This document shows positions 26,301 to 62,893 of a stretch of 64,000 nucleotides of DNA, piece by piece. The notes under the pieces were generated by a model. The model was not told the DNA's origin, made no database searches, and saw only the letters and a list, made by a program, of their open reading frames with translations. The position numbers and the translations under genes are program-made. Source of the DNA: Glandiceps talaboti (taxonomy: Eukaryota > Hemichordata > Enteropneusta > Spengelidae); assembly GCF_964340395.1 (NCBI RefSeq), contig NC_135559.1, positions 8,929,759 through 8,993,758 on the forward strand, read 5' to 3'. Numbering within the stretch: the first letter of the stretch is position 1; the number at the start of each line of letters is the position of its first letter.

Positions 26301-26861
26301 CGCTGGTCATATGAATTTCATTATATAACATTTACTCTCAGACTGATTTTGTTCGCTTTTGTAGGAAAATCTCGAGAGTTGATTTTTCTGTCAGATTTTC
26401 AGTCTTTGTCTGTTTTCCTTCCAGGTGACTCATGTTTGTCGAGAAGCCCAACTGATCATCAACTCAATAATTCATCCTAGAGTCCCAAGTCTGGGCAAAC
26501 CACTCTCACTTGCAGATCTGCCAGATAGGACTTGCTCTGCAAATGGCCAATCAAATTCACTTGTACAGCATCAACATATAATAACCTCGGTTGCAGGTGC
26601 AACTGAACAATCGGTTGCCATGGAAATTGCAGATGGTAGGGATCATGAAGGCACTTTATTGACAAAGTTTGGGGACTCTGCAGTTTTATTTGAAAAAAAT
26701 AATGGAAAGCCAGATTTGGGTAATAAAAATGTTAAGAGTGACATTAAGGTGATGGAAAGAACTAGTAAGGATAACAAAGAGGACACATTGGTTGCCATGG
26801 AGAGTGAAGATGAAGATGATAATGAAGAAGATGGCAACGATGATGAAGATGATGACGACGG

Positions 26862-26907
<46 letters not shown>

Positions 26908-27578
26908 AATGGTGATGAAGAAGATGACGATAAAGATGATGATGTCGGTGATGATGAAGAAAGTCTTGGGAGTAAAGTTGAGGATTTGGAAGAGAAGAGT
27001 GAAGACAGTGGAAAGAATTCAGGAAGTGAAATGATGAAGCAAGGCACAAAGAGAAAATCAGACAAGGCGGGAACCAAAGATGATGATGACGATGAACCTG
27101 ACAAAAAGAAGGTAAAATGATAATTGTTGCACCAAGATCAATGGCCTTTATTTACAGAGAACTATACACATACAATGTATTTATGCAAATTATAGTACAG
27201 AGCCTCCTATTGGTAAAGCCTTTCAATTTGTTGAATGCTCCGTGTGAATGAAACATTTCAGTTTGCCAGTGAAGTGACTCATCTTTGTCCAAAGTTTGAA
27301 TGAAATGTTCCCATTTGGCAGTGAAGGGACTCATCTTTGCACAAAGTTTGAATGAAACTTTTCCATTTCTCAAGGAAGTAGTTGTACTTAAATAGATGTA
27401 CGGATGAGTTTGTAGCATTGGGAATTAGAACGCAGCTGCTTCTCTTCTTACAGTTTATTTCTTTTGATAATTAAAAATATACTATAACCTATCTATTATG
27501 TGTTTATTACAGGTTGACGAATCCGAGACGGATGCTATGTTGGCAACCTTTGTGGATGCATCACCTGATTCTGACTAG
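15275..27578 (+). CDS. PELP1: PELP1 orthologue, Rix1-type ribosome biogenesis / nuclear scaffold protein
   Basis: PELP1 (Rix1 in yeast) works in the nucleolar PELP1-TEX10-WDR18-SENP3 complex that matures the 60S ribosome. Exons: 15275-15400, 15919-15980, 17538-17643, 18171-18320, 19142-19276, 20186-20336, 20946-21075, 21663-21750, 22553-22647, 22855-22962, 23115-23253, 23729-23873, 24586-24641, 25473-25679, 26425-27111, 27513-27578; 816 aa, all phases closed. Human-like landmarks: LEGIALLGCLVKQCSTAEF (exon 3), KHTESW...LYQDIETG (exon 6), YTSTKCRQQLYQCLLA and PHPRWPPPLQCS (exon 14), HPRVPSLGKPL (exon 15). The tail is acidic (about 692-752), then TKRKSDK, then DESETDAMLATFVDASPDSD, matching the human C terminus. 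It is shorter than the human protein (about 1130 aa), lacks the long proline-rich part, and I see no LXXLL motif in any exon. The start ATG lies in ACAAAATGGCTGC. Confidence 0.95.
16479..16515 (+). mobile_element. Solo end of the TIR GTAGTCTGTA MITE family
   Basis: GTGAGGGCGCCCCGTCATGG, then CTTACCGTACAGACTAC, matches the right end of the complete element at 51002-51100. The left end was not found here. Confidence 0.5.
16735..17286. mobile_element. 552-bp foldback element in PELP1 intron 2
   Basis: Outer ends TGTACAGTCAGCC (16735) and GGCTGACTGTACA (ending 17286). Long inner arms at 16847-16950 and 17132-17235 are about 104 bp each and about 90% identical when one is reversed. They share words such as GGAATGTCTCTGCTTGCACA. 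No coding capacity. The transcript of this intron could fold into a long hairpin. Confidence 0.85.
17755..17955 (+). repeat. CA-rich compound microsatellite, PELP1 intron 3
   Basis: CACACA tracts mixed with a degenerate unit GCACTGACACACATGCACGC repeated several times. Long open frames across it are artefacts of the repeat. Confidence 0.9.
18494..18597 (+). mobile_element. MITE, TIR TATGACAGAACCCC family, half copy
   Basis: Contains GTGTGGGTACTCAG, later CATGGGGTTCTGTCATAA at the right end. Shares the interior with copies at 21275-21450, 21808-22001 and 36908-37069; the left end is missing. Confidence 0.55.
18637..19073. repeat. Inverted repeat with triplicated 34-bp right arm
   Basis: Left arm at 18637-18665 is the inverse of a 34-bp unit, ACTCTATACTCTCTCTAG followed by TTTCGTAGTATTTGAA. 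That unit is repeated three times almost perfectly at 18973-19073. Between the arms is a second tandem pair, about 41 and 43 bp (18743-18826). It looks like a MITE whose one end was amplified. Confidence 0.75.
19324..19530 (+). pseudogene. Duplicated fragment of PELP1 exon 6 and its 5' splice site
   Basis: About 200 bp nearly identical to 20241-20446. It starts abruptly inside exon 6 (at the codons for VKHTESW) and runs through the donor into the intron. The 96 exonic bases differ from the true exon at three positions. They read VKHTESWTSHCDRVLGSL and onwards without a stop, with donor GTAAGT. It lacks an acceptor and lies only 47 bp after the exon 5 donor, so it should not be spliced in. Retaining the intron instead gives a stop eight codons past exon 5. 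Confidence 0.85.
19987..20129. mobile_element. Short foldback element, PELP1 intron 5
   Basis: Left arm 19987-20028 contains CAGAGTCAAA and ATTTCTTGCAAGT. The right arm 20081-20129 holds the inverse with one small insertion. An inner pair TTTTTGCTG / CAGCAAAAA continues the stem. Confidence 0.65.
20328..20630 (+). repeat. Degenerate tandem repeat of the exon 6 donor region
   Basis: Two and a half units of about 120 bp (20328-20447, 20448-20566, 20567-20630), each starting at the exon 6/intron 6 junction. The copies read AACAGGTGAGTATTACGG, AACAGGTGTGCATTATGG and AACAAGTGAGTTCC. Only the first joins a real exon. Confidence 0.75.
20630..20880 (+). repeat. TGTTG pentanucleotide array decaying into GTCTC-type units
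   Basis: Pure TGTTG/GTGTT units to about 20745, then diverged five-base units such as GTCTC and CTTGT to about 20880. It lies in PELP1 intron 6. Confidence 0.9.
21275..21450 (+). mobile_element. MITE, TIR TATGACAGAACCCC family, diverged copy
   Basis: Left end TATAACAGAAC and right end GATGGGTTCTGATAT, with interior words in common with 21808-22001 (TGTACTCA...GTATTTG...GAGTGCAA). Strongly diverged. Confidence 0.5.
21808..22001 (+). mobile_element. MITE, TIR TATGACAGAACCCC family, best copy in PELP1
   Basis: Begins TTATGACATAACCCCATGAC and ends GGGGTTCTGTTAT in inverse. Inner palindromic words GGTGTACTCAGGGTATTTGC and GAGTGCAAATACC flank the centre. It lies in PELP1 intron 8. Confidence 0.7.
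23255..23590 (+). repeat. (CA)n compound microsatellite, PELP1 intron 11
   Basis: A pure CA tract near 23335-23400 is flanked by degenerate CA/ACAGATATATGC units. Begins two bases after the exon 11 donor. Confidence 0.9.
24045..24380 (+). repeat. (TG)n microsatellites and poly-C tract, PELP1 intron 12
   Basis: TG/TGTC tracts at 24055-24160, a degenerate TGTGTG/CATGCATGCG part to about 24330, then about 15 C residues at 24366-24380. Confidence 0.9.
25900..26322. mobile_element. 423-bp foldback element in PELP1 intron 14
   Basis: Arms 25900-26063 and 26170-26322 are inverse copies. Shared words include AAGACCCCTGTATATAAACA, ATTACACTCTTTGGAAAGTT and TGATAACAGGAGGTC, with a 106-bp loop. Ends are AATGAAATTCA and TGAATTTCATT. 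No coding capacity. The right arm ends about 100 bp before the exon 15 acceptor. Confidence 0.88.
26800..26980 (+). repeat. Coding GAT/GAA repeat: acidic tract of PELP1
   Basis: Inside exon 15. An uninterrupted GAT run at about 26862-26903 sits in mixed GAT/GAA/GAC sequence and encodes a roughly 60-residue Asp-rich stretch. The human protein has poly-Glu in the equivalent place. The pure codon run should be length-polymorphic. Confidence 0.9.
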
Positions 27579-32431: not shown

Positions 32432-35400
32432 TCATGTGACCCACACACTTGAATCTGACTTTGTACTCGCTTGTCGCAGCATGTATGCGTCTTTCGATCC
32501 TTTTGCTCGGTTAACTTGATTTCTGTCTTTCTGTGTCTCCGAGTCAAACTCTTTTTGTAGTTTCAGTGCAAATTGAAAGTCTATTTCTTCCTGAGAGATT
32601 GTCTTCTTGGTAGGGCTTGTAAACTGGTCTATAGTTCTCTGCACAGGCTGACTGTCAAGTTTCAGTTTTTTATTTTTGTTTCCCTTGCTTCCACTTGCAT
32701 TTCGTTTATGTCTTGTAATATTAGTAGAATTGTGCAATGGTTGTGGGTTTGCTCGCGTAACTTTATCACAAAATTTACTACTTTTCTCACCATGTATTGG
32801 TGGTTTTTCAGGTAATATATTTTTATCGCCTTCTCCTCTGTTTATTATATTTGTCACACTGGTGGACACATTTGTAATATCCTCAGACCCTACGTCTGTT
32901 TCTACATCCAACGTCCTCCTAGAATCAGTCGCATCTTGTGTAACATTATCAGATGCACTGTCGTTTAATCCTTTCTCTAAACTTTTGACCACTTTATTTT
33001 GCACTTTATCATAAACTTGTCGCTTTCTTCTCGGTGATGTGTATATATCTTTACAAACTAAATCATCATTGTCATTCTTCTGTGGTGTACTGTCTTTCAT
33101 CTGTTCAACTTTTGCTCTTTCTTTGTTTTTCAACCTTCCTGCTTTTTTCGGCGAGTCCTCGTCATCCCTGTATCTCTGATTCTTTCTTGGTGTTCTAGGT
33201 GAGGTAGGTTTCATTTTGTCGTCACTTCCTTTACAATTTCGTATCGACTTTCTGTGTGCTTTATCAGTTGATGTACTAGAAGCATGACTGTTATCGTCAT
33301 TATTTTTTTCGTGATCGTCTCTCTTTTGTGCAAACATGCTGTCAATTGTCCTGACTTTAGTACTTCGTGTTTCTTTGGTGGGTTGACTTCGCGTACCTGA
33401 CGCCGCTTTATCGTCTGAACCTGAATTGTTATTATTTGCGTTACCCGACTTTAACCTTCCCCGTCTTCGAACTGCAATATGTTCTCCTTTATTCATCATG
33501 ATATTCTGTTTCTTGGTTTCGATATGATCGATAGCTTTTTCAGTCCTCTCGTCTCCTTCATAATTTAACATAGGGATTTCCTTTTTAGACTTGACACATT
33601 GTTCATTCTTTGAGTTTTCCATCTGCAAAACAGGCGGCATTTCTTCGTCAGAGTCTTCGACTTGATAACTCGCGGGAATTTTCAGCAACTTCCTTCGAAA
33701 AGATTTCCTCTCGCAATCCTCACTTAATTTGAAATCAAGTAAACGTTCGTGTTTTAAGCGAGGAGATTGATCATTCGTTTGTGTTTGTTGTTCCGAGGTA
33801 ACTGTTGCTGACACTTTCCGTTTGTTACTACTAAAACGCACTGTTGAATTCTTTGTGAGTTCAGTGTTTTTCGTAATCTCAGCCTTAATAACTGTTTTGT
33901 TTTGTTCGTCTAACTTGCCATTTGCCCATATGGGGTGAGGTGAAATTTGCTCGCTACCTGTCATGGTCCCTTTTGATTGGTTTTCCACCTTTCGTTTTCG
34001 TTCCTCTACTAAACTTAGCCACTTGGCCATGACAAGCGGTGACCGTTGCAGCCACTCTGTTTCATCTTTCTGGTTGTCAAATTTACTCTGAAGATTACGT
34101 GGAGTGCTGTGAATAACAGTTGGAGATTTCAATGTGCCATCTATATGTCGTTTTGGAGGTGTTCGTGGCGATGAATGAATCGGCTTGAAATGATTTAATT
34201 CCATTGAAATACTGTCGGTACTAGCAGAGCTACTCCTCCCTCCAGAGGGCGCTGTCCTGTCTGGAAGACCACTTTGAGATTCTTTCTTCTTGTCAGGTGT
34301 TTTAGTTTGACTTCCATCACACATATCTACGCTAATACTTTCGGTGTTTTCACTGGAACTTCTGCTTGGCAATGGTTCACTGGTACATTCTACAAGTATA
34401 CATGATTCTGAACTTTCTCTGCTTGGAGTGGTAGATTTGTTGGCAGCCTTTGCAAAGAACGTTTCTATACTGATCACACTGTCCTTGCTTGTACTTGACG
34501 ACCTGGATCCTTTTTTACTACTTCCACTTCCAGACAGTTTCTTAGATGTGTTAGATATAACATCTGGAGACTTATTTGGGACTAAAATCTAAAGAAAAAC
34601 AGAAATAAGTGTATGTATTCCTCATTTGATAAATGGTAATCAATATAATGCACAACAGAATTCTCTGTACCCGCAATAGCTATCTACCACATACTAGAGG
34701 GTCAAATTAGAACAAAAAGGTTGCCATATTCTCGGTACCTGCAATAGCATTTTACCTCATGTTAGAGGGTCAAAATAGAACAAGAAGGTCGCTTATTCTC
34801 TGTACCCGCAATAGCTTTTTACCTCATGCTAGAGGGTCAAAATAGAACAAGAAGGTAAACTTATTCTCACACATGCCTATAGTAATGCATGTAAAGCGAG
34901 TGGAGCAGAAGTTATGGTGTCAACCAAGAAATTGAATGTTCATTATTTTTATGACACGCCTAGGTAGTAATATTCTATTTCAGGTACTGAGAATTAACTC
35001 CACATTTAGGAACATTGCTCCCTTCTTACCATGAAATCACCTCACAGAATAAATATTTGGCAAAAATTAACTAATACACTGAAAGTTACTTATTTCATTG
35101 TATTCAACTACTTTGTGTTGTAATTGTGTACATGATATATTCAAACATACTTGGTTTATTTCTTGCTGTAATTTCCTAGCAAGTTCTTCATCTCCGTTGG
35201 GTATATGGTTAATTTCATCATTCAATTGTTTGGCTAGATCTTCATCACTTAGTGATACTGGTATCGGCTCTGGTTCCTCCATCAACACATCCTGACGAAA
35301 TAAACAGAAACAAATCAGTTTATCCTACTTTACACAACTATCAATGACAGGGATTGGGATTGGCCTAATAATATTTCCATACACCTATAGTACACTGTAC

Positions 35401-38400
35401 AGCCGCATTGCTGCTAGACCATAACTTTGAAGAGAATAGGAGTATACTATATAAAATAATTTAATACCAGTGTTTTTTAAGGGGCAATATTAAAGTTGGT
35501 AAAATCTACCTGGGTTCCCAAGTCAATTTACCAGGGTTCCCCACCAAAATTATATTACAATGCAGGGCTCAAAATTAACAGTAGTCCCATGCCCACAGAC
35601 TAACAATTTATGTCATGGGACTACCATAATTTGCAGCTAGTAGCCCACTCAGGCTACCACTGATTATGTGATGAGGATGGAAGATTTATGGACATGGAAG
35701 TATTTTAATAACATACATATTTCCAATACAGGAAATCTGTTTTCAGTTCAGGGACTACAGGTCACAATCCTTGGGCTACCTGTTTCTGAAATTGGTAGCC
35801 CACTAGGACTACCAAAGAAAAAACTTTAATTTCAAGTCCTGCAAATGTATGGGAACTACCCCAGTATACCAAATTTATCCCAGTCTGTTACTTGGGTTCC
35901 CACATCTCAGCAAACATGCTGAATACTCTTCATATAATTACATAATTAATTCCTTACCCGTTCTGCAATATTAGAACTCAGTTTTCTTGCCAATTCTTCA
36001 TCCTCCAATCGTTGTAGTTCGTGTCTCCTTCTCCTTTCCTCTATTTGTTTCGTCTCTTCTTCTTGAAGTTTCTTGATCAGTTCTGCACTAGCCTGCATTT
36101 CTTTTTCTTCCTCTTGTATTTTCTGTTGTTTCATCTAAAAATTGTAAAATGAAGAATTATCATATCATTAGGAATATGTATAGGAATGATAAAAGTGACC
36201 ACAAATGACTCAGTTTCTTATTAGGCCTAATAAAAAAATTGTGTGGTTCTGATAACGCTCAATTTTAGAATATGTGGGGTAGGTAGATTTTTTATTTTAT
36301 TTTATCATATATATTCTTTTCATATGTGAGTGTCTAGTTCAGGTAGTTATGTTTTCTGTTGTTTTCCATATGGTCTCTGTATTAATACTATTATTGGTTT
36401 CTTCCCATCAAATGTACATCCATTACAGATTGGACGAAAAGTTTTATATTGTCTTTTTAAGTTGACGTCAGTTTTCGCATCCACTATTTCACATGAGACT
36501 TCACAATTTTTGAAATTTTATCATTTTTTTCTTGAATACGTAAAAAAAAGTTTAGGGTCAGCAGTGAAAAACTAGGTGGGGTCAGGTAACTGGAACCAAA
36601 CACCTATTTTATTTTAGGCCTTACAGCAGCCTTACTTAATTCTACATTTGTCGCGGACCCTATATTCCTTCAATCTAATGAATTATACAACAGGTTTAGA
36701 AAACCTTCACAATGTTTGACTGAAGTTTTGATAATTTCTCTTTATCTCACTTCCAGCATAAAATTAATCTGACATTCGCGATAGTCAAATCTGAAAAGAG
36801 ACTTACCCTGTTCAACTGTTCTTCGAATTCCTTGCGCACTTCTCCAGGTTGACTGATAAGAGGTATGTGATGTGCAAGAATTTCTGTAATCAGAACAAAA
36901 TAGAAATATTATGACAGAACCCGCTGACAAGTGCGTGCAAGTGTGGTGTACTTAGGATATTTGCACGAGTGTTGGCTGTGTTCTTTGCATCTGTAGAATA
37001 CTGCAAGCATGAGAGCAAATACCCCTGAGTACCCACACTGGAACTCAGTGGCATGGGGTTCTGTTATTACTACAAATGTTTATCTGAAACGGCAAATTTT
37101 CATAAAAATCATACAGCGCAATCACGCGATTTTGTGTGTAGCAAACGACCGTGTCCAATAACCTGACCGACCCTAATTTAGGCCCAGACTCTAAATATTC
37201 TTTGCATGCAAAAAAGGTAAAATGGTAACATTTTCTATTTCAATGTACAGCTTCATGCCTTTGCCTCATCTTTTAAAAAAAAAAAAAAAAATAGTATTCC
37301 AGAGAGAAACCAGGTCTTTTTAGACTATAGCAGTACAGTCTGCATAACATGTTCATCTACTGCTGTCTTCATTTATGTCATCTCATCAAACTTTCATGGA
37401 AATATTGTGACAGACGAGTATTTCATCTTGGGGTTGAAGTAATTTTTACAAATATAAAATAACATAAAATTCCAACCTACCTTCCCTATTTTCTGAAGTC
37501 ATGTAATCATAAAACAAACATTTTTTTTATTTTCCCTAATGTGACTCCAGCCACAATTCTATCAAAATTAATTTGTGCAATAATAATTTGAAACATTTTA
37601 CTTCCACAACATACAGTAGACTAGCTAATCAATTTACAATGCACGTCATTCTCTGTGACATAACATGCATGGAATTTTTAAATTTTTGTACTTTAAAATT
37701 TAAACCATTTACAGACTATTTTTTTCAAGATCAATTGCTGTGAATAGATTTTGAATTTACTGTTGAGTTGCTGAACGTTAGTTTAATATGAGTACAGAAA
37801 AACAGATGACTCAGAAAATAAAACGCCTTGAGTCGAGACTAGACATTGCATCATGGTAAACACATGATGCGAATACGAATTTTGGAGCGTTGCCAAAACC
37901 TCTCTCTTGTCTAGTGTAGTCAGGTATGTTTTAGAATATGATCGCACTGGCATCATCATGTCGCCGTTGCCATAACACACACGTTGCATTCCTAAAACTC
38001 TTTAAATCGACGTGGAATCAAAATGGGCGTGTCGTCTGTGAGATCGCGATGCAAAAACAACATTGTTAGAGTTGTTGGCGCGCTACTTTGAAAATTATGC
38101 CGTCTGCCCTATTTACAATTACAAAAATTGTGCAGTAAAAAAATAACACGATTGGGCTTTTTTGGTGTTTTTATTACTTTACCTTCTTCAAAAGATTCGT
38201 CTTCAAGTCCTTCTAAACGTCTTCTACATTTCTCTGGGAAGGCATTTTGGATGATTTTCCATCGGTTCTGGTTGATCAATCTGTTTTCTCGGGATTGTTT
38301 GCGTGCCCAGCTGCTGATTCTGATCCGACATAACGGACACGTAAAGTTGGCTTCCTCTACATTCTGACGAAAACATGGCATGCAAAGTTCATGAGAGCAT

Positions 38401-38525
38401 GGCATAGTAACAGGTTCAATGAGAATCGACATACAGATCGGGCACAGACAATCTGAAAGTTGCAAAGACGCCCCATTTTCTTCTGTCAGTGGCGATGACA
38501 ACTCTCGTCTCTCTTGTGCCGCCAT
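32432..38525 (-). CDS. RNF168: RNF168-type RING E3 ubiquitin ligase
   Basis: In vertebrates RNF168 reads ubiquitin at DNA breaks and ubiquitylates H2A on K13/K15. Exons (minus): 38525-38183, 36883-36807, 36134-35958, 35291-35151, 34588-32432; 964 aa, all phases closed. C3HC4 RING: C28, C31, C43, H45, C48, C51, C63, C66, followed by the SSW-R...W-II-Q helix seen in RNF168. A UMI-like helix lies around 156-167. MIU1 (LEDEELARKLSSNI) is at 183-196. Two additional MIU-like motifs follow at 213-227 and 232-245. The C-terminal MIU2 (EEIDFQFALKLQKEF) is at 913-927 and the LR motif NRAKGSKDAYMLR at 939-951. The MIU1/UMI helices favour RNF168 over RNF169. Exon 5 is one 719-codon basic, Ser-rich, low-complexity block, making the protein much longer than human RNF168 (571 aa). 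Confidence 0.93.
34661..34993 (+). mobile_element. MITE, TIR TTCTCGGTAC family, copy 2 with triplicated end
   Basis: In RNF168 intron 4. Units starting TTCTCTGTACC/TTCTCGGTACC lie at 34661, 34729 and 34796 (67-68 bp each). They are followed by the rest of the element, ending GGTACTGAGAA at 34993. The interior matches 3916-4106. Confidence 0.75.
36223..36621 (-). mobile_element. MITE, TIR AGGCCTAA family, copy 2 (intact ends)
   Basis: 399 bp from AGGCCTAATAAAAAAATTGT to ACCAAACACCTATTTTATTT plus TAGGCCT. This is the most complete copy, in opposite orientation to 14710-15200 and 50630-50990. It lies in RNF168 intron 2. Confidence 0.8.
36908..37069 (+). mobile_element. MITE, TIR TATGACAGAACCCC family, copy in RNF168 intron 1
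   Basis: Starts TATTATGACAGAACCC and ends CATGGGGTTCTGTTATTA. The interior has the palindromic words GTGTGGTGTACT and GAGTACCCACAC. Confidence 0.75.
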
Positions 38526-38747
38526 TTTGTTAATATTGACAAATGTCGCGTCTTGCGAGAAGAGAACTGTTTCTGAACAAACTAATCTCAGCTCGATTTT
38601 ATGAACATTTGGTTATCAAAAAACAATATAAGATTTAAAAAAAATAAGTATAATCACTCTCTTTGGTAGGATTTTAGGCTTGATTTGAATCCAAAATTTG
38701 GTGTTTATCTCGTTGACCTTTGACCTCATATACATAAGTCTAACAAA
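38526..38747. promoter_or_regulatory. 222-bp bidirectional promoter RNF168 / EIF2A
   Basis: Start codons of two divergent genes lie 222 bp apart, so both core promoters and 5' UTRs must overlap or abut here. It includes CpG-containing ATGTCGCGTCTTGCGAG near the RNF168 side, a 3' half rich in A/T, and a perfect DR1 nuclear-receptor-type site. No TATA box obvious. Confidence 0.75.
38714..38726 (-). promoter_or_regulatory. Perfect DR1 nuclear receptor element
   Basis: On the minus strand AGGTCA-A-AGGTCA, the consensus direct repeat with one spacer bound by HNF4, RXR, COUP-TF and TR4-type receptors. It lies 21 bp upstream of the EIF2A ATG. Whether it is bound is not known. Confidence 0.55.
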
Positions 38748-44900: not shown

Positions 44901-46902
44901 GTTAGTCTTGGTCGATGATTCATGTCGAAATGACTGTTTACTAGCTACAGCTCACCACTAGGTGGCACTCTTATCAGTCATGACCGTAAATGGCACCTTC
45001 ATTGTATGGGTAAAATATACAACAGTTAGGCTATAAAATGTCTTTCTCTCCTATTGTTAGAGTGAATTTCTCCAGTTATGTATTATGCAACAAAACTTCA
45101 AAATGTAAATTCAGTGGGATTTGAATATATTCTCTTGACTCTTTTCTTGTAGGGTGCTCCATCATTTGTACGTGTGTACAAGTACCCCAACTTAGAAGGT
45201 CCTGGTTCCACTGTAGCTAATAAGAGTTTCTTCAAGGCAGACCAGGTGACCATGCTTTGGAACAAAAAAGGTCAGTAAACAATGGAAATGAAGCATTGGC
45301 TTCGCAGGTTACAGGTTCGAGCTTTGCTTGTCCCTGCGTTGTCACGTGACTTCTAAGTTCTCAGTTCGTGCGAGACCGTAAGTAACTAGTAATCGCCATC
45401 TTGGATTTACTGTATTGAATAACCATGGAAATGTGTATATATTCCCACAATCCTTTATGGTATTTTGGGTGGTCGGTCACTGAGTGCGCTATGTGCAATT
45501 ACTAGTTACCTGCGTATATATGCAATGTATGCAGGGATGAATGAAAGGTTCATGCTTCACCACAGCCATTTTTTTCTGAAGTCCTATGGTAATATTTTAA
45601 CCATGATTGTGCCTCAGTCAACCTGGCTGTATAATTGGGGACCTGGTAGGATAGGTTGAAATGTGAATGCTTTAATCATATATGTGCTAATAGAGGCTGC
45701 AATGGATTGTTTGCAATGGGAGTTGAGAAGTATAAAAGGCTGCTGTGCCACTATAGATCTGTGCCAGGGGTAATAATTGTAAAGTGCTTTAGGCGTTGCG
45801 TGGGAAGCACTTTTTAAAAACTAACGTGATTATTATACTTTTCATATACGTAGGAACTGATTTGTTGGTGATAACAACAACTGACGTTGATAAAACAGGT
45901 GCTTCCTACTACGGTGAACAGACTCTACATTATATTAGTGCTTCAGGAGAAACAAGTGTTGTTCCCGTCTGTAAGTATTTCGATTACCTCACATTCCACT
46001 GCCCTTATCTGGGTAAAACAAATGTTCACTGTTTCACATTAGTTTTTGACATAGTTTTAATAAAATTTATTGTGTTTCAAGGCCACTGACTCAAATGCAG
46101 ATTTCGATATCCAGCTAAAAGTAAGCATTGTGAATAACATCTTTATTGAGCATAGAATTATTCAAGAAAAAATAGACAATCTTCACGCATATGCCTCCTG
46201 CCCCCTGTGGTAGGACTTGTGACTGCATGAATGTGAGTCACCAAAACATCACACTTGAGTTCCATGTGTTTCACCATACTTGTATCCTATTTTTTTCCAG
46301 CTAAGTCAGGCCCCATCTACAGTATTGACTGGAGTCCAAATTCAACAGAATTTTGTGTAGTTTATGGATGTATCCTTTTGTGGCATAATTAAAAATCACC
46401 AAATGGTCTTGTCCCTCAGTATCTTGCTAATTTAAAGGGGAACGTTACTCCAGGAAATGAATTCATTTTCATAAATTATGAGTTGAAGAGTCATTTCATT
46501 ATTTTACATCACCTACAAAATTACTTGCGATTTCAGAAAAACAGTAATTTGGTGTGTGCCTTTATAGTGTATCTTTGTTATGGGCTATTGCATCATGGGA
46601 GTCAGCAGAAATAATGTATTCAAGTTGCACACTGAATATTCATGAGGTCTGCCTTACCCTTTTAGTGTAGGCACTCAGGACTCATGAATAATCAATGTGT
46701 GAGTTTAAGTGTATGAACCCTGGCTATAATGTGTGTGACCCTTAACATCATCACAGTTATGCCAGCTAAAGCTTCACTCTATAATTTGAAGTGTGAACCT
46801 ATCTTTGACTTTGGTGCAGGAGCCAGGAATACAGTCTTCTACAACCCACACGGCAATAATATCCTTTTATATCAGTACTGATAATTGTCTTTACTACTGT
46901 AA

Positions 46903-46966
<64 letters not shown>

Positions 46967-49900
46967 CTGTATGTATGTATGTATGTATGTATGTATGTAT
47001 GTATGTATGTATGTATGTACCGGTATGTATAAATGTATGTATGTATGCATGTATGTATGTATGTATGTATGTATGTATGTATGTATGTATGTATGTATGT
47101 ATGTATGTGTGAGCAAGTGCAATGTGTGTCTGCATGCATACATACATATGTGTATGTCTGTGTCAGCTTTCTTAAACCTATTCCCAATGAATAATTTTGT
47201 CTTGTTGAATGTAAAGATTATAAGAAAATCAATGGTTGGCTTCCTATTTTAAAAAAATGTATCATAAAAAATGGCCACGAAATTTAATGTATTACTGCCA
47301 CCAGTATTTCAACTTATCAAGCGTACCAATTATTGTAAACAATTTTTAGCTGAAGTTGAAAGAATGTAAAATTTCATGTTGATGTATGTGTTCCTTAACA
47401 ATGTTTACTTATCTGTTTGGCTGGTTTTGGAAACCTGAGGGGTAACATGGTAAGTATTATCAATACACTGAAATCTTTCTGTGATGCACCACTGCATCAT
47501 GGGTCTCAGCAAACATGAATATTCATTACATGCACACTGAATATTCATGAGCTTATATCCTTCTGATAAATAGTCAGCCAAATAGGAAATGACTCGCCAG
47601 AATCCAAACTTATGAAAGTACCTTATACTAGTATCCTGAAGAAAGCTATATCTATACTTCACCCACCGACCATCGTTAATGGGGTCTCCATCTTACAATC
47701 AGTGACGTTTTGATTTTTTTGTAATCCTGCCATAGATGGCGTCAATTTTTTTTTAATTTCACCCGATTGAATAAAATATATGGTCAGTTTGTTCATGAGA
47801 AACAAGCATGAAATTACAGAAAGTATTTGCAGATACATTAAACTACACTTGCAATTCAAACAAAATAATTTTCAGACATTATTTTTAAATTTTTAAATTT
47901 TTTTCAGGAATTTTGGGATTGTAAACAAAAGAAACTAATTAGTAAAATGACAGCTAGTGATTCAACCCTCTTTGAATGGTGTCCTGATGGAGCTCACTTT
48001 CTGACTGCAACCTGTGCACCAAGATTAAGAGTTGGTAATGGGTGAGTCTAGTCTGAACCAGTTTGAAAAAGTCTGAACTGGTTTGAACTGGTCTGAATCA
48101 GTTTGAACCAGTTTGAACCGATCTGAACCAGTCTAAACCAGTTTGAACTGGTCTGCTCTGATATGTTTTGTCTACCTGCGCCTACAAACCTGTAGATGCA
48201 AGCTCTCAGCAAGACTATCTTGTCACTTGTGTGCACAATTTATAAATATTTATTAATTAAAAAGCACCTTTTTATCTCAGCTTATCCTCACTGGAAACAC
48301 CCAGTCCCACCTGAAATAATAATTGCCAATCGCGAGGTATAGTTTTAAGAGCCAGGCTTCTTCTGTCAACCCAGTCACATACAAAAAGCTGGGAGAAGTG
48401 CGATATGCTTAATTTCAAATGAAAACATTTCAAACAATAGAGCTTTCCAAATTTGATGATAGAAAAATAAGAGTGTTTTGAGTGTGGGCACACATTAGTA
48501 TGGTAGACCAGCAAAGTTGTTTCCAAACATTAACTATTTTACCATCTACATAAAAGTAAAAAAACTTATATGCTATTACTGTTTCTTGTTTTTCCTACCA
48601 GTTACAAAGTCTGGCACTACACTGGCCAGCTTATGTACGAAATGGATGTTGACAAGAATGCAGAATTATGGGAAGCCACCTGGCAATGTTTTCCAGAGGG
48701 AGCACTTCCAGAAAAAGCAATAGTCCACCAGACAGCCAGCCAATCAGAAGCCCATGCTAAGCCAGCAGCATATAGGCCACCAGCTATGAGAGGGCAGCCA
48801 CCCAAAAAAGATGTCTTTGTGAGTTAGTTGTAAATGTGAATTTTAAGAATAGTTCTTTTAAGATAAAAACAAACACAAATGTATATAAATGATGATTGAT
48901 TGCTAGAATTGGCATCCAATTTTGTTGCCATGTTCATGAACAGATATTTGTTTTAGTTACATTAAAACTTAGAGATACATGTAATATAGCAATAAATACC
49001 AGGGTGCACACACTTAGTAGCTGCCTTGCCAATTATTCGTCCAATGTATTTGTAACATAACATTGAATGATAAGACTGCTTCTCATCTTTGACTTGTATT
49101 GACAAGGCCCCTTAGTTCACTTGCATTTTCCTTGGCTGAATTAAGAACACTGGTGAGAATAATGTCTAATTACTCAAATTGAAGTGACTAATCACAGCTA
49201 GTCTCAGAACTCAGAGATAAAACATTATTTCAAATAAATATTGTGTTATAGAGTTTATCATGTGAAGAAGCATGGAAGGCGTTTATTGTATTTTATACAT
49301 TCAACAATAAAGACTTTTGAAAATCTAACTAAGATATATTTTGTAATGTTATTTTGTAGAAAGCAGAAAAAGAAGAACAGAACAAGCCAGGTTAGTTTTA
49401 TTATTAAATGTGCTGTGTCTTTGCTAATATTGGTAACAGAAAGTGGGAAATCATAGTAATATTGGGCATAGATTCCTATACAATCAATCTACTACAATTT
49501 TGTTTCTGGTAAAATGTCTTGGAAACTCTGGTACATTTTACTGCCTTACCACCCTTAGCAAACACACTGGTAGGGAACCCTGGTAAAATGACTGGGGAAT
49601 TCAGGTAGCTTTTAACACCTTTAACCACCCTTAACAAACACACATTTGGTATTAAGAGACTGATTTTCTGGAAGCTTTTCTAGAAATTTTTCTAGACCTT
49701 TAACATGTATTTAGTTATTTATAGTATTCCTCTTTTTTTTCATTTTTTAGAGCAATTATCCAAATCTGCAATGAAGAACAAAAAGAAAAGAGAAGCTAAA
49801 GCCAAAGCTAAGCTGGAAGGTGATCAAACGGTAAGAGATCATCATTGTGATTGGTCATGATCATCAGATTTCTGTCATGTGACCTTATCACATGGTAAGG

Positions 49901-54914: not shown

Positions 54915-57900
54915 ATGATAGGTCATAAAAGGAGAAGTTCAGAAGATCAAGAAGACGCCGTTGACAGACGGGGACTACTGAAAAAACAAAAATCTATATC
55001 CTCCGCATTCCGTGAGTTTGATATTTCAGAAGGGGGTGACGATGACGTTGACGAACAAGACCCGGAATCTGAGCCACAGACAGTTCCTTGCTTTACAGAT
55101 CAGGTTTTGACGACATTTAAACACGGCATTGAGCACCTGAGAGAAATTGCAATGCCATGCATACCACCAATGAACCAAATGGTAAGTAAATAATTTACCT
55201 AAGATATATCACTCTAGCGAGCTTGGCTTGCTTCTCTCCCGTTAGTCTTGCTGCTAGACGTTCGGGCTTTCTTTCGATAGTTCGCAGTGAGGGTTTGGAT
55301 GTTCCATCCTCGATAGTAATGTTCGGTCGTGTGTCGTATTTTATCCGAAGAACATCCGAGGTCTAGCAGATAGACTACTCTCCCGTATGCATAGACCATG
55401 CAGTGAGAGAGTTCCCTACGTGTGTCAGCCAATGGTTAAGCCCCAAAATTTACATATCTCATCTGATGTTGACCGAAACGTGACACTGAGTAGTCAGTCC
55501 TCGGTGGTCATCATGCTCGAGCAATATCAACAACTACACGGCGACGAATTTCCGTGGGTTTACGTGAGTGGAACATTCCTTGATTTGTAGCGTGAGTTTT
55601 GTCAGAGTCGATCAAGTACATGAGAAATTGTTCATTGAGGGGCTATAAAAATATACAAACGTCAGTACAAGTGTCGTGCAACTAGTGTAAAACAGTCTGG
55701 AAAGTTATGTATTTTCTTTGAAAAGCAACGATTACTTCCGCAGTACTCTTGAATTACTTAATTATGTAACTGTCAATAATGTTGGTCGACTATTCTTCCA
55801 TACGTGAGAAACATCATGTCGAAGTGTTTACAAAATGTATGAAAGTGTCTGCATTTGATTTAGTTATAACAGCTTTCAGGGGGCAGTTCCAACTTCCACC
55901 ATACCGTCTCGTGTTCAAGGTCGTCAACATATCTAAAGAGTCACTTCCCGTCGTCACGTCAGTGTTCCTGTAATAGTGTGACCCCGGGAGTGTGACGTGA
56001 CACCCAATGTGGATTTATTAGTATACTCTAGACTAATAAATCATGGTTAATTTAGTGAACTTCAGTAATTTCAACGAAATATAGCAATTATTTACATTCT
56101 GTCTGCTAGTCATCAAACTATAGGAACATCCGGGTTGACTGACAGGCAGGTGCAGTTTAAAATTTACATAATAGATTTTGTAATATCCTGAACACACCTG
56201 CCACAATTGGAAAAACATGAAAGAGGAATTCTACCTTTGGGATTGTTATGGTTGTTTGAACCATAGACCCTTCTATGTTTTAACTCAATCTGTCAAATGG
56301 TGACTGATGTTAATTATAAGTTAATTAAGTGTATTGATAGCCATATCCTGGCTGATTTGCATATATATTTTATCAATCAGTAATTGAATTCCCATGAAGA
56401 TTATCAGTTTAGTTTTCATTTATTTACCTTTGTTTCCTTATTTATACATAGACCGACAGACAGGTAAGTAAGTACCAATGGGTAGGGTCTATGATTTATG
56501 GTCATCCATGTTATATGTTCTGAATGGCAACATAAAACATAAACAGAACACTGTACATAAGGATGGACATAATAGTAAATAAATAACACATACATATATT
56601 TGTTTGTTTGTTTGTTTGTTTGTTTGTTTATTTATTTGTTTACTTATTTGTGTATTTACTTGTTTGCTTATTATTTATTCATCCCTGAGATAAATTTACA
56701 GTAACATTGAAACACATTAACCATACAAAAGTGAGACGATGTTATTGCAATCTGAGAAATTACTAAAGTCTGGGCAAATCAAGTAAATATATCTGAGATT
56801 TGAAATCTATTTTATATCAAATATATATGGGAAAAAAGAAAAAGCAAAAACTAGACAAAATTATGATATACAACAAGTGAAAAATAACATAAGATTGTAA
56901 GCACTGAGATTCCTCCTTGTATCAGAGTTAAAGGCAAACACTGGATAAGGGTTAAAATCTAGGTGTGATAAATTATGGCTGTTTGGCAGAACTCTATGAA
57001 AAGTTGGTCCAGAACAAAAAATGACCATATGTGACAGTAATCTAACAACCTTGAATTGAAACATAAAACAAGAACTGTAATTGAAACTTACTAGTATATA
57101 TAGTCCTTTAAAACTCTCTTCAGATCAGAGGTGAAATCAGTGTAAAAGACAGTGGCATGAATGGCAGGATACCATATTACTATTCGATATTGTCAACCCA
57201 CTATAGCATTGATATGTTAATACATTTTATGCAATAGCAGAAGTGAAAAATTTTAACTTAAAGCAGAAGTTAAAGTTAACAGTGGTAATTGAACCAAATT
57301 TGAAAATGAAGTTCTGTGTACTGTCAAACAAGATACAAGAGGTTCAAAAACCTCTTCCTCAAATCTGGGCATAGTATTCTCTGAAAAAAGCAGTCCTTAC
57401 TTATAGAGACATTGTATCACACTTAAAGTTAATCATGATTCAATTTCAGCTTTGTAAATGCAGTTACATATGACACTCAATTATATCTGTTAAAAAACAA
57501 TTTCTTTTCTTCAGGATGAACCTGTTTCAGCTGAGTCATTGATCAAGTTACCACATCCCAATGGCTATCTACAATCAATTGGAGTCAAATTCTGTTCAGA
57601 TGTTGAAGATGATGGCAGTAGATCTGTACATAAAATCACAGAAGTTCATGATCAGTTGTTCGAGGGAAAGTTGAGGTGAATTTATTTTAATTTTTCATGA
57701 CAGATTTATTTGCATAGGATTAATACTATTTCTGTTTCATATTTACCAATTTTGGTTTTGTCCTTTTTCCTTGATATGCATGCATGGACATAATTATTTC
57801 TCTTGACTAAAACACCGAAGCATCTTCATTTCTCCTGTAAAGAGGAAGAAAGTTGGTTTCCAAAGAGACATTCACTGTTTAACTAAGTTGTTTTACTGTT

Positions 57901-58059
57901 TTACAGACCTGGTGATGTCCTGCATACTATAAATGGACTAAATGTCTCAAAGAGAAGACATACTGATCTGTTGGAGTTAATGTACCATCTCGATGAAGAG
58001 TTTGAACTGGTAAGCTTAGACTATAGTTATATACACATGAACATGCACACACAAACACT

Positions 58060-58121
<62 letters not shown>

Positions 58122-58330
58122 CATGCATACATACATACATACATACATACATACATACATACATACATACATACATACAGGCATGCATGCACACACACGC
58201 GCACTCACATACGGTACATACGCATGCATACACACCCACCCTTGCATGCACACAGCATGCACACTTGCATTGCACTCACATTGCGCGCGCACACACACAC
58301 ACAAATGCATCCACACATCATCACACTGCA

Positions 58331-58392
<62 letters not shown>

Positions 58393-58412
58393 TACATACA
58401 TACACACATATT

Positions 58413-58443
<31 letters not shown>

Positions 58444-61400
58444 AATAAAACTGAAATCATACATACACTGGTAAAGAAATGGCAATAACAAAATATGCTT
58501 CAGTCATATACAAAAAATGGATTAAAAAATGAAAGGAAAGTTAATTCTATACAAAGTATAACAAGCAAGAATTCATAAATTATAATAATATCTATAAAAC
58601 ATACAAACTGCAAATTCCTACTATTTTTGGCATAGCCACCATTTCTTTGTGAAAATGAGGAATTGTAATCCTTAAGTATATATGTTTTCATTAGCCCTAA
58701 CTTGAGATTTACTGTTTCATTTATATTTCAATATTTCGATGACTGTCAGCCTTCTTCATCTGGGAATGAGAACATGAACCATGTCCATTGCTGAAATTAA
58801 CATTTGTGGAGGAACTCTGCTGGGGATAAAAGGACGGTAGCCAGCATAATTAACCGGTTACTCTGCAATTTCTTGCCGGCTACCATTTCTGAAACTTGTA
58901 TATCCATTGTTGGGTAGATTCATAAAGTCTTTGTCATAATTTACTACTCAGTACTGCCTACTTTTCTAATTTTGTGTGCTACCCTTAGCTATCCATCCTG
59001 TCTATACACAGCATTCTCGCAAACCAGAGTTATTGTTTCTACCATTACATTTCGAAGGAATGGCTCATTAAGAACGTTACCGTAAAACAGGTCGTGGTTT
59101 GCTACGATGATACACAGTGAATTCAAGTATTCAAACAATTATTTGTATGTTATCATTCACGTAGGTTATCAAGAGAAAGATGGAGAACACCGAATCTCCA
59201 GATGAAGATGTAGATGAGGAGGATTGGGCAGTAGAAATTGTCACTCATATTAAAATCAAAATCAAACTTAACATAGATGGTAAGGGTATATAATCTTTAA
59301 CGTCTGAAGATGAAATTACGTATGTACTGACAACATACCAGGATAGGTTTGTGGTTGACCCTAATCAAAAGAGGTTTGTGAGGGTGTCCTAGCTGTAGAT
59401 ACAATTATTCAGCTGAAATATACTTACATTTACTGACAAAATCATGTATTACAAACATGCTCCCAGGATGTGTTAAATTTGAAGTTATTCCATATTTTAG
59501 GGGTTCAAGGAGATCTGTGAGGGTATCCTATAGATATATACCCTAGAAGGGGAAGTTTACATGACTTATGAACAAGCTTTGGGGTGGCTGTCCTTAAGTC
59601 CATTCTTCTAATGACCTAATGGACTGTTAGATATCTTAAATCTGGCATTTCATTATTTTAAAAAAATTGACAGCCTCTGTAGCTATGGTAGGATTAGCAA
59701 AAAATCGGTATGGTCAGGTGGTGGTATGGTCAGCCAGTTGTAGATATTAGGTAGTTTGATGTCTCTCTTGATCTTGGGATTGCAGCAATCTGATGTTGAT
59801 AGCCTCTGCAATCTTTCTTGGGAAATCATGTTGGCATGTATAAACAATGGAAAAATAGTTATGACTGTATAAAGTCATGGGAATACTAGTATTCAGCAAA
59901 ATCTGATGAGTAAACACTGCTACTCAAGTAATTTATTCCACTAATATTGGTAATAATTTATTCAATTGTTATATTTCAGGTGATAAAATAGTGTTTGAGG
60001 TGGTTTCTTGTGTTGAAATGGAATTTATAGAGAAGTCTGATGATGGAATGCCAATGATTCGTTGTTATGATAAGATGGATGTATACATCTACAAACCAAC
60101 TGAAACTGGCACCGTTTTGGCTATGACTGATCAAAAAACTCTTGGTCTAATAGCTAATAAGAAAGATGATCTGAAAGGTAAACATACAGAGATATATTAA
60201 ATCATATTATACCACATGCAAGCCAGGTTGAATGCTTTCCAACAACTTGAGTAATGTTATGGTGTGTGATGTTTCAAGATGGCATCAACTCATTAATATT
60301 CAAATATTTAACTGTGACTAATCTATTCAAGATGGCGTCAACTCATGAATATTCAAATATTTTATTGCAACTAATCTGTTCAAAATGGCGTCAACTCATG
60401 AATATTCAAATATTTAAGTTCGTACACACAAGTGACATGGGATATTTATCTGTATTTTAAACTCTGAAAATAAAAAAACACTCAGAAAAAGAAGTCACAA
60501 ATGAATGCTAGTTATTGAATATTTGTTTTGACAACTGAACCCATTGGTAGGATTTATTGCTGTTAGCACAAAATTTGGGTTGACAAACTCTTACCTTACG
60601 GCTCCATTCTTATGGCTCCTTTAATAAGATAACACTAATACATGAACCTGGGAATGAAACCCTGGCCTTTAACAGAGCTAATAGATCTCACCACTATCTA
60701 TGATATCAATGGTGAATATGTTGTTTGATCTTGCAGGACAATGGACAATGTACCGATACAAAGTGTTCTGGCCTGGGTCTAGAAACCAGGTCAACCAGGA
60801 AGATATGCCAAACAGTGCAGTTGTCTTATATAATAAAGAATTTAATCGATGCCTGGCAGTGTCAACGGGGAAGTACCAAATGTTAACCTTCAAGGTAAAC
60901 ATTATTTGGATGATTTTAGTGTTTTGAATGCCAAAAAAAGATAAAATCAAATTACTAAGATATGTGACAAGTTATGTTTGTTCTTAGATTTTTGTAGAAC
61001 TTGAAACTTAAGATCCATAAACTATGTTATTAAAGGGCAATTTTTCAATACCATGACACCGTGTTATCTTATCCATGGAACCATAATGATTTATATTGAA
61101 ATCGGATTATTGTTTTGCTCTGTATTAATTGTTTCCAAGCTATCATTTTTCACACCCACATTTAATCCTTGTCCGATCTGGGCCTTTATACATCAAGGTT
61201 TACACCTGCTAGAATTGATCTGCATGCTTAGAATACATGAATATTCATTATATAGCTCTGCATTGCAGTAAGGTCATGACCTCTGATCTTTGACATAAAA
61301 CTAGATTTTTTCTTTTGTTTTCTCAGAAACCTACAGGCTTTAAAGGTTTGGATAAACTGCACCACATCGATGGAAGGATGTTTTATAAAAGAGAATGGTA

Positions 61401-62893
61401 TAAAGGAAGTGACCGTGTTGCATTTGAATCTGCACTCTATCAAGGTTAGATTTATCTCTTCAAGAAATTTTAGGCACAGACAATTAGAAACAGATTGGCA
61501 ATGGGTATTGTTCTGAGGTGATAATAGGGCGATTATGAGCTTGATCATCATCTCAGATAGGCTGCAAGGATCTCCTTTGTTTCAAACATAGGCTGAAAGT
61601 TTAAATGAGTGACATGTGAGTTGCTCATTGGGAACTATCAGTGTTTGTTTTCTATAGCAAATTAACACTACATCATTGGTAAAGGTCAAAGGTGTGAATG
61701 CATAATCTTTGAGCGGAAGCAGAAATTTTTGCGAAAATAGTTTGAAAATCGAGCAAGATTTAGTTGAGTTATTTCCTTTTAAAACTTGCTTGTTATGAAT
61801 GGTCAAATTTATGATTATATAATGTGCATATTTGAGGGAAAAATGCAGAATTATGGAAAAAGTTACATACTGTATGACAAAATCTGATGACAGGTCAAGT
61901 TGTGTTCTATGGCTCTGTAGCAAGTCATGCTCTGAGAATTTCATCCTACCCACTGGGATTTTTGTCAGAAAAGTAGATACTTCATTCCATGGTCGTAACA
62001 TTTCCAATGTTTACACGAGGGTTTCACCTTGTGTGTGTATTTTGTCATGGTGATGAATTGACATATAATGTGGTGTGATTGTTGTACATATCTTTTAGCA
62101 AGGGAGTATGTAAAGCAGGCATGAGTTCGAGATAGTCAACACAAAACCCATGCCATGTATAAACTGTTGGTATGTTCAAATTTCGTGTACCATTCGTCAG
62201 TCGAACGGCATCCAATACATGTATTTTTGGTCGACTGAAATCCTAAAAGATTTTGTTGATAAGGGATTAGTCATTATTTGTTTACAACAGTAGAAACAAC
62301 ACATTCACTGTTTTAAGTATGGATTATTTTTATTCCGTATGCCATACAAATTACCCCGTTAAAATGGTAATAAACAACTAATCCATTTATTACATGTACA
62401 TATGTTATGGTAGTTTTTGATTTATGCGAGAATATGTTGAACCCAAGCCAATTCACTTGTTTGAAAGTTATTTCCATGACAATAGAGTAATGTTTACTTG
62501 AGACTACAGTTTGGACAATGGGAGAGGACTCATTGCTAATCTGTTTTCTTACTTGTCTGTGCTTTAGATAATTCAGTCCACCAGCAGCAATGCTTTGATA
62601 TTTCTCACGAGACAAAGTCCAAAAGTTATTATTATGATACATTACCAGGTATATAATGTAACTGGACCACTTATGTCTCTTGTCTTTGACCTGCATTGAC
62701 AAGGCCCCTTATGTCTCCCATAATTCTCAAATAAGCATAAATGTGTCTGATTGTTCTTGTTCTCTGTCTTGCAGGATTTTACTTATTCAGAAGTGGTGAT
62801 GGTATTATACTGGTTGAACAGAAGGATCCTGGCTCTCTCGACTTCAACACTGGCTTTGAGATAATCAGTGTGAAGTGTGAAGCATTTCCATAG
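54915..62893 (+). CDS. PDZ domain plus interleukin-1-like beta-trefoil protein (novel architecture)
   Basis: Exons: 54915-55181, 57515-57675, 57907-58009, 59165-59279, 59980-60177, 60737-60894, 61327-61444, 62568-62648, 62775-62893; 439 aa, phases closed. The start is supported by an in-frame TGA two codons upstream. Residues 1-89: no signal peptide, basic clusters HKRR, RR and LLKKQK, then an acidic stretch. Residues 100-181: PDZ, with GYLQSIGVKF as binding loop and GKLRPGDVLHTINGLNV as core. An acidic linker (186-198) follows. From about 216 to the end is a beta-trefoil. Its second half shows NRCLAVSTGKYQMLTF (318-333), GRMFYKRE (350-357), FESALY (367-372), PGFYLFRS (400-407) and GFEIISV (427-433), the order found in IL-1, IL-1Ra and IL-18. 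FGF-type trefoils are the main alternative, but FESA is an IL-1 signature. Function unknown; an intracellular, leaderless cytokine-like or alarmin-like factor is my inference. Confidence 0.8.
55243..55377. mobile_element. MITE, TIR TAGTCTTGCTGCTAGAC family, copy 2
   Basis: 135 bp from TAGTCTTGCTGCTAGACGTT to CCGAGGTCTAGCAGATAGACTA (inverse ends TAGTCT..CTGCTAGAC). Inner inverse words include ATCCGAAG and TTCGG. Matches 41216-41372 at the ends only. Confidence 0.7.
56262..56493. mobile_element. CATAGACCC-family element, 232 bp
   Basis: Starts CATAGACCCTT and ends AGGGTCTATG. Short inverted ends are the same as in the hairpins at 39202-39229 and 52543-52578, here with an AT-rich interior. Confidence 0.6.
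56597..56665 (+). repeat. (TTTG)n microsatellite
   Basis: TTTG tetranucleotides at about 56599-56627 grading into ATTT/ACTT variants. Confidence 0.9.
58055..58445 (+). repeat. (CA)n-(CATA)n compound microsatellite
   Basis: Pure CA at 58063-58120, CATA at 58124-58180, then mixed CA/CATA to 58443. Intron 3 of the PDZ/IL-1-like gene, starting about 50 bp after its donor. Confidence 0.93.
60272..60417 (+). repeat. Three-unit tandem repeat of about 53 bp
   Basis: The unit TTCAAGATGGCGTCAACTCA, then TGAATATTCAAATATTT, occurs three times in intron 5 of the PDZ/IL-1-like gene. Confidence 0.85.
62568..62648 (+). other. Symmetric 81-nt exon 8 of the PDZ/IL-1-like gene
   Basis: Phase 1 at both ends, 27 codons (DNSVHQQQCFDISHETKSKS then YYYDTLP), placed between FESALYQ and GFYLFRS. 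The downstream donor GTATAT is weak compared with the GTAAGT-type donors of the other exons. Skipping keeps the frame and gives FESALYQGFYLFRSGDG, which has the uninterrupted IL-1 spacing. A cassette exon is therefore plausible; not proven. Confidence 0.75.

Follow-up and report, generated by a model that had tools for sequence, protein, structure and literature searches.

A leaderless acorn worm protein with a likely PDZ domain and a divergent IL-1-like domain, arranged as in fish nIL-1F

LOC144442221 is a gene of the acorn worm Glandiceps talaboti, a hemichordate, and lies on the plus strand at positions 54915-62893 of a 64,000-nucleotide stretch of contig NC_135559.1, here called the window. 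Its product is a leaderless protein of 412 amino acids, in which a likely PDZ domain is followed by an acidic linker and then by a likely distant homologue of interleukin-1 (IL-1), in an arrangement like that of the fish protein nIL-1F; the precursor would be tethered, and its presumed C-terminal beta-trefoil would be released to an IL-1R-like receptor. Profile comparisons place the C-terminal domain nearer to IL-1 and IL-18 than to any other family encountered. This reading holds at the level of sequence, weakly test by test; no single test is decisive, and several agree. Because the cut-off of the Pfam IL1 family was not reached, the protein is described as divergent IL-1-like and nIL-1F-like, and not as a proven family member. 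Proteins of the PDZ/IL-1 kind are known from fish, while the presence and antiquity of such a protein outside vertebrates are new. NCBI already carries the predicted proteins of LOC144442221 and LOC144442320, both named uncharacterized.

Gene structure and homologous proteins

The initial annotation had described nine exons encoding 439 amino acids, and splicing these exons rebuilt exactly that protein from 54915 to 62893, with eight GT/AG introns and closed phases. One exon of this model proved wrong. Exon 8, of 81 nucleotides, is absent from the three homologous proteins found and was on that ground ruled out of the main product, so that the best model consists of exons 1-7 and 9, eight coding exons in all. 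It is flanked by phase 1 on both sides, and the frame is therefore kept when it is skipped; use as a rare cassette exon is possible, because its splice sites look ordinary. Exon 8 would insert 27 residues into the FESALYQ/GFYLF block. Without it, FESALYQ and GFYLF adjoin (FESALYQGFYLFRS) and the IL-1 signature is contiguous, in a form that is closer to the vertebrate signature than the 439-residue version. The IL-1-like blocks listed in the initial annotation are thus present in the order given there, except that the P of PGFYLF is supplied by the rejected exon.

A homologue search through 5.8 billion proteins, with E values up to 10, returned three relatives. P0001 is NCBI isoform X2 of LOC144442221 and is matched in every residue when an alternative first exon is joined to exons 2-7 and 9; P0002 is LOC144442320, a G. 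talaboti paralogue of the gene; P0003, a JGI protein of 418 amino acids from a 2395-base contig, covers 99% of the query at 55% identity and is probably a transcript or retrocopy, perhaps from another hemichordate. A second search, made with the alignment (3,895 candidates), which reaches relatives sharing exact five-residue words, gave only the same three proteins. Within the 64-kb window tblastn found no second copy of the gene, a scan of NCBIfam gave no match, and two short peptide patterns matched 147 stretches of viral contigs, none of them a relative. Since the independent NCBI prediction shares all exons except the first and the eighth, a chance assembly of open frames is excluded; exon 1 is coding as well, its start MIG[HLR]KRRSS being kept in P0002 and P0003. 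It is highly improbable that the prediction fused two adjoining genes, an error to which nothing except the erroneous exon 8 points: both domains occur together, and in unchanged order, in P0002 and P0003, and the latter on its small contig fits a transcript. A two-gene fusion was rejected on these grounds.

The IL-1-like domain

A profile of the three hemichordate IL-1-like domains was compared with 177,635 distinct PDB sequences, hits being accepted up to E 10. All 14 hits were interleukin-18 (E 0.26-0.65), and they count as one finding, because they are many copies of one protein. Among 24,736 Pfam families, IL1 was the sole one matched by the hemichordate trefoil pieces, with two of the three pieces matching at a best E of 0.028, below the cut-off. 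When the profile was aligned by hhalign with seven IL-1-family sequences, a score of 38.9 (probability 81.9) was obtained over 94 columns, above each of 100 column shuffles (mean 11.8, maximum 19.4); with IL-18 left out, the score was 30.5 against a shuffle maximum of 19.3. Single sequences were also aligned, with 100 shuffles each; the sequences used for both fibroblast growth factors (FGFs) and for all but one of the seven IL-1 members are provisional. Four of them exceeded every shuffle: IL-36RA (35.2 over 71 columns), IL-18 (27.3 over 30), IL-1RA (24.0 over 68) and nIL-1F (23.4 over 25, shuffle maximum 19.1). With nIL-1F included, the profile found 35 PDB entries. Of these, 33 belong to the IL-1 family, headed by the IL-1 receptor antagonist (E 0.010); the remaining two are a ubiquitin-like protein and, ranked third at E 0.013, the trefoil of bacterial RsgI5. 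As nIL-1F already belongs to the IL-1 family, this result does not count as independent.

The best profile matches, IL-18, IL-1beta and IL-36 (PF00340), share with the hemichordate domain a contiguous block of the IIFFQR..FESSSYEGYFL kind, and with the hemichordate protein the absence of a leader. The hemichordate protein differs from them in lacking the P of the IL-1 signature and in staying under the family cut-off. The pro-domains of IL-18, IL-1beta and IL-36 are short and are not known to contain a PDZ domain. Two motifs are preserved throughout the IL-1 superfamily, and FES-PG-WF is one of these (PMC12108812).

Several results given here, and some from the comparison with nIL-1F below, weigh against the IL-1 reading. 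The trefoil piece of the window protein itself matched no Pfam family. No hemichordate sequence passed the Pfam IL1 cut-off of 25 bits, and of the three full-length proteins only P0002 listed IL1 at all (12.9 bits, E 0.091). Three single IL-1 members fell within the shuffle range, namely IL-1beta (17.1, reached by 6 of 100 shuffles), IL-33 (14.4, by 18) and IL-1alpha (8.1, by 98). FGF1 alone scored 24.9, which none of 100 shuffles reached and which is above nIL-1F and IL-1RA, but over 16 columns only. An approximate form of the PROSITE IL-1 pattern was matched neither by the hemichordate protein nor by fish nIL-1F. Two AlphaFold2 models, built from three and four sequences, were poor, with a mean pLDDT (predicted local distance difference test) of 37.9 and 38.3; a Foldseek search with the second gave IL-18, IL-18, IL-33 and IL-18 in its first four rows, at E 0.12 or worse and a template-modelling score of about 0.2, which is not significant.

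The FGF1 score bears on the alternative that the protein is a PDZ scaffold with a beta-trefoil of another lineage, FGF-, AbfB- or fascin-like, which came to resemble IL-1 by convergence inside one shared fold. FGFs are beta-trefoil ligands, the FGF1 stretch stands level with some single IL-1 members, and the match to RsgI5 by the profile that includes nIL-1F points the same way. Against this, no FGF or AbfB match was found by Pfam in any sequence scanned; FGF2 alone scored 14.8, reached by 25 of 100 shuffles, and the two FGFs together 22.0, reached by two, in comparison with 38.9 and none for the IL-1 family; the hemichordate-only profile led to IL-18 alone in the PDB; and the intron phases match those of IL-1beta. 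A trefoil of another lineage is therefore quite unlikely. FGF as the better overall match was ruled out by the Pfam scans and the shuffle-controlled alignments, though the FGF1 stretch stays. The comparison of IL-1 and FGF profiles called for in the initial annotation came out on the side of IL-1, and its pre-vertebrate setting for the domain agrees with a gene from a non-vertebrate deuterostome whose nearest profile family is IL-1/IL-18.

Two local resemblances were observed besides. The segment DVYIYKPTETGTVLAMT (window 60078-60128, residues 249-265) resembles the FGF1 stretch VYIKSTETGQYLAMD (from the provisional FGF1 sequence), 69% of 16 aligned columns being identical. Elsewhere the domain matches IL-1, and the stretch could be chance or the trace of a link between FGF and IL-1. 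RsgI5 (PDB 9fnk_A), a bacterial anti-sigma factor, has FES..Y.GYYL repeats very like the FESALYQGFYL block, possibly by convergence within the trefoil fold.

The PDZ domain, N-terminus and linker

A PDZ domain at about residues 100-181, as in the initial annotation, was supported. When the spliced protein was compared with the full set of PDB chains, GRIP1 came first, over residues 110-181 (E 5.7e-5), and the other 15 matches, at E 0.034 and worse, all lie in the PDZ region and all bear the names of PDZ proteins. The Pfam PDZ models stayed below cut-off in all three relatives, and an N-terminal PDZ domain is considered likely. All the hemichordate proteins have histidine H161, which lies in RRHTD at the start of helix B and has a histidine of GRIP1 as its counterpart in the alignment; a histidine at the start of helix B predicts class I ligands.

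By hydropathy the 412-residue protein has no signal peptide, the highest 19-residue mean within its first 60 residues being -0.33, in agreement with its earlier description as leaderless. The window protein, P0002 and P0003 have in common a basic N-terminus, KRRSS..LLKKQKSIS (window 54915-54996), which we take to resemble a bipartite nuclear localisation signal of the kind in the IL-1alpha and IL-33 precursors. The acidic linker is conserved too, with DEEDW in all three relatives. IL-16 is a PDZ cytokine and not a trefoil, and no link between it and the hemichordate protein was found.

Intron phases

Without exon 8 the intron phases of the gene are 0,2,0,1,1,0,1. For IL-1beta the published phases of the coding introns are II,0,I,I,0, and all twelve strands are assigned to the last three exons (a figure legend says four; PMC4880838). 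Its last intron has phase 0, as does the hemichordate intron after QMLTFK. Introns 2-6 of the hemichordate gene repeat this series, 2,0,1,1,0, while intron 7 is extra and splits the IL-1 signature. The coding exons of human IL1B are presumably 47, 52, 202, 171, 131 and 207 nucleotides long, lengths that fit the published phases; by these and a hand alignment, the intron after QMLTFK would lie within about two residues of its counterpart and intron 5 within about six. Agreement with IL-1beta is claimed for the phases and not for exact positions, because the distances rest on presumed exon lengths and a hand alignment. An intron after QMLTFK placed as in IL-1, which the initial annotation had tentatively proposed, is thus upheld in its phase, its exact position being drawn from the presumed lengths only.

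Comparison with fish nIL-1F

The initial annotation knew of no PDZ/IL-1 fusion, and this was mistaken. Lumpfish nIL-1F, of 352 amino acids, has a PDZ domain and an IL-1 domain encoded by seven coding exons, and relatives occur in ghost shark and coelacanth (PMC7144542). Six peptide fragments, decoded from the nIL-1F primers of that article, served as the query by which P0004 was found, and five of the six are present in it, the fragment of the presumed start being the one that is not. P0004 is a lumpfish protein of 361 amino acids with the UniRef name 'Interleukin-1 beta', and both domains were confirmed on it. Pfam gives IL1 at E 1.8e-9 and PDZ below threshold; in PDB comparisons, PDZ chains align to residues 36-86 (MPP7, E 0.011) and IL-1-family chains to residues 214-350 (IL-36alpha, E 5.3e-7).

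The hemichordate protein and nIL-1F are alike in being leaderless, in having one N-terminal PDZ and one C-terminal IL-1 domain separated by a charged linker, in the FESAL..G(W/F)(F/Y) block and in an intron-rich gene. They differ in that identity is 21-22%, that nIL-1F passes the Pfam IL1 cut-off and the hemichordate trefoil does not, that a conserved basic N-terminus precedes the PDZ domain in the hemichordate protein, and that the hemichordate gene contains a single phase-1 intron which the IL-1beta series lacks. A thrombin-type LVPR stretch occurs in lumpfish nIL-1F and not in the hemichordate proteins. BLASTP between the two gave scraps only, the best (E 0.071) joining non-corresponding regions and the FESAL block coming second (0.26). 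With the hemichordate hidden Markov model the nIL-1F trefoil obtained 5.5 bits, a value attained by 2 of 2000 shuffles (1586 of the 2000 scored at all); the nIL-1F PDZ domain likewise obtained 5.5 bits, attained by 16 of 2000 (1967 scored). In a maximum-likelihood tree of 12 sequences the node that pairs the hemichordate proteins with nIL-1F has 24% support, and the relevant nodes are not resolved. The best PDB matches of the PDZ domains differ, being GRIP1 for the hemichordate protein and MPP7 for the lumpfish one.

Differing best matches make independent fusions possible, so that the IL-1-like domain could have come from a common ancestor and the PDZ domain have been joined to it separately in hemichordates and in fish. 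No special likeness of the two PDZ domains was found, as the shuffles also indicate. However, the order is the same, each protein has a single PDZ domain, and both have a charged linker. The exon count of nIL-1F, seven with six introns, is not that of the hemichordate gene, which has eight with seven. Setting aside the intron that splits the last trefoil exon, the one extra relative to the IL-1beta series, would bring the hemichordate count to seven with six. Separate fusions are unlikely on balance, and common descent of the whole PDZ-plus-IL-1 architecture is likely as judged from the sequences.

Proposed mechanism

In the proposed mechanism the precursor would stay intracellular, tethered through its PDZ domain to proteins with class I C-termini, as the conserved H161 suggests. 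Damage, or cutting in the acidic linker PDEDVDEEDWA, may then free the C-terminal domain; the candidate site precedes the trefoil like the caspase-1 site in pro-IL-1beta. The freed trefoil would bind an IL-1R-like receptor, as agonist or antagonist. IL-1R-like receptors have been reported in invertebrates (PMC9020223), and fish nIL-1F has been described as an IL-1beta blocker, since in trout cells a recombinant piece of its C-terminus lowered the expression that IL-1beta induces (as reviewed in PMC4929537).

Alternatively, the trefoil could be IL-1-related and the protein a purely intracellular PDZ adaptor or nuclear factor that was never a ligand, secretion and receptor binding having been acquired later, in vertebrates; this corresponds to the intracellular ancestor suggested in the initial annotation. 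This would fit the absence of a leader or of any strongly hydrophobic segment, the strong conservation of the basic N-terminus and the retention of the PDZ domain in all relatives found. A signal peptide is, however, missing in most members of the IL-1 family too (PMC4929537), so that its absence does not discriminate, and both the inhibition by the C-terminal piece of nIL-1F, which has the same layout, and the invertebrate receptors speak for a ligand. The purely intracellular role is accordingly given a minor share of the probability, and the tethered precursor with a releasable trefoil is preferred.

Features of the locus and neighbouring genes

The exons are collected in Table 1. Intron 3 contains a long (CA)n and (CATA)n microsatellite at window 58056-58440.

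Table 1. Coding exons of LOC144442221, in window coordinates
Feature	Position	Strand	Residues	Content	Donor or following intron	Basis or remark
Coding exon 1	54915..55181	+	1-89	basic N-terminus MIGHKRRSS..LLKKQKSIS, no leader	donor GTAAGT; intron 1, phase 0	splicing and conserved start
Alternative first coding exon, isoform X2	55513..55563	+		MLEQYQQLHGDEFPWVY	donor GTGAGT	P0001 reproduced exactly
Exon 2	57515..57675	+	90-143	first part of PDZ	intron 2, phase 2	
Exon 3	57907..58009	+	143-177	second part of PDZ, RPGDVLHTINGLNV and RRHTDLLELM	intron 3, phase 0	
Exon 4	59165..59279	+	178-216	PDZ end and acidic linker PDEDVDEEDWA	intron 4, phase 1	candidate caspase-type site DEED/W
Exon 5	59980..60177	+	216-282	start of IL-1-like domain	intron 5, phase 1	
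Exon 6	60737..60894	+	282-334	middle of IL-1-like domain, NRCLAVSTGKYQMLTFK	intron 6, phase 0	
Exon 7	61327..61444	+	335-374	GRMFYKRE..FESALYQ	intron 7, phase 1, inside IL-1 signature	
Exon 8 of nine-exon model	62568..62648	+				unused in 3/3 homologues; outside main product, possible rare cassette
Last coding exon	62775..62893	+	374-412 of 412-residue product	GFYLFRSGDGIILVEQKDPGSLDFNTGFEIISVKCEAFP, stop		

The nearest recognised gene upstream is eIF2A, matched by Pfam (E 2.7e-7) in an exon-like open reading frame at 45793-46086 (+); the open reading frame at 48534-48824, with no Pfam match, looks by eye like a later part of the same gene. A RING-finger exon (C3HC4, E 3.1e-9) at 38112-38612 (-) and a 718-residue open frame at 32435-34588 (-), the latter with no Pfam match, look by eye like an RNF168-like ubiquitin ligase. 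A further open frame at 26383-27117 (+), with THVCREAQLIINSIIHPRVPSLGKPLSLADLPD and a long acidic run, is by eye PELP1-like and had no Pfam match.

Implications for the origin of IL-1 ligands

According to a 2022 review, invertebrates had yielded no IL-1-like homologous sequence, and IL-1 originated together with the vertebrates some 420 million years ago, its receptors having appeared long before the ligands (PMC9020223); the age of IL-1beta has been put at about 425 million years (PMC5861070). In the open-licence PMC literature, among the matches listed, an IL-1 ligand of hemichordates or amphioxus is reported in none of the titles and opening lines of abstracts, which is not proof of absence.

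A PDZ-plus-IL-1 arrangement before the vertebrates is likely. Because the intron phases match, the pro-domains of IL-1beta may be a remnant of that arrangement. A wider proposal is possible and is advanced tentatively, with a little less than even confidence: LOC144442221 would be the first non-vertebrate gene for an IL-1-family ligand, and the PDZ-plus-IL-1 form would be ancestral to the family in its entirety. Hemichordates and vertebrates would then share an ancestor that had a PDZ-anchored IL-1 precursor with intron phases 2,0,1,1,0, a form which nIL-1F keeps, and the pro-domain exons of IL-1beta would be worn-down PDZ exons.

If this is true, the IL-1 ligand family moves back to the deuterostome ancestor, and its ligands did not appear long after their receptors. 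Fish nIL-1F would turn from a curiosity into the likely ancestral form, the IL-1 pro-domain would be suggested as a former PDZ tether, and the age of the IL-1 ligand-receptor pair would become directly testable.

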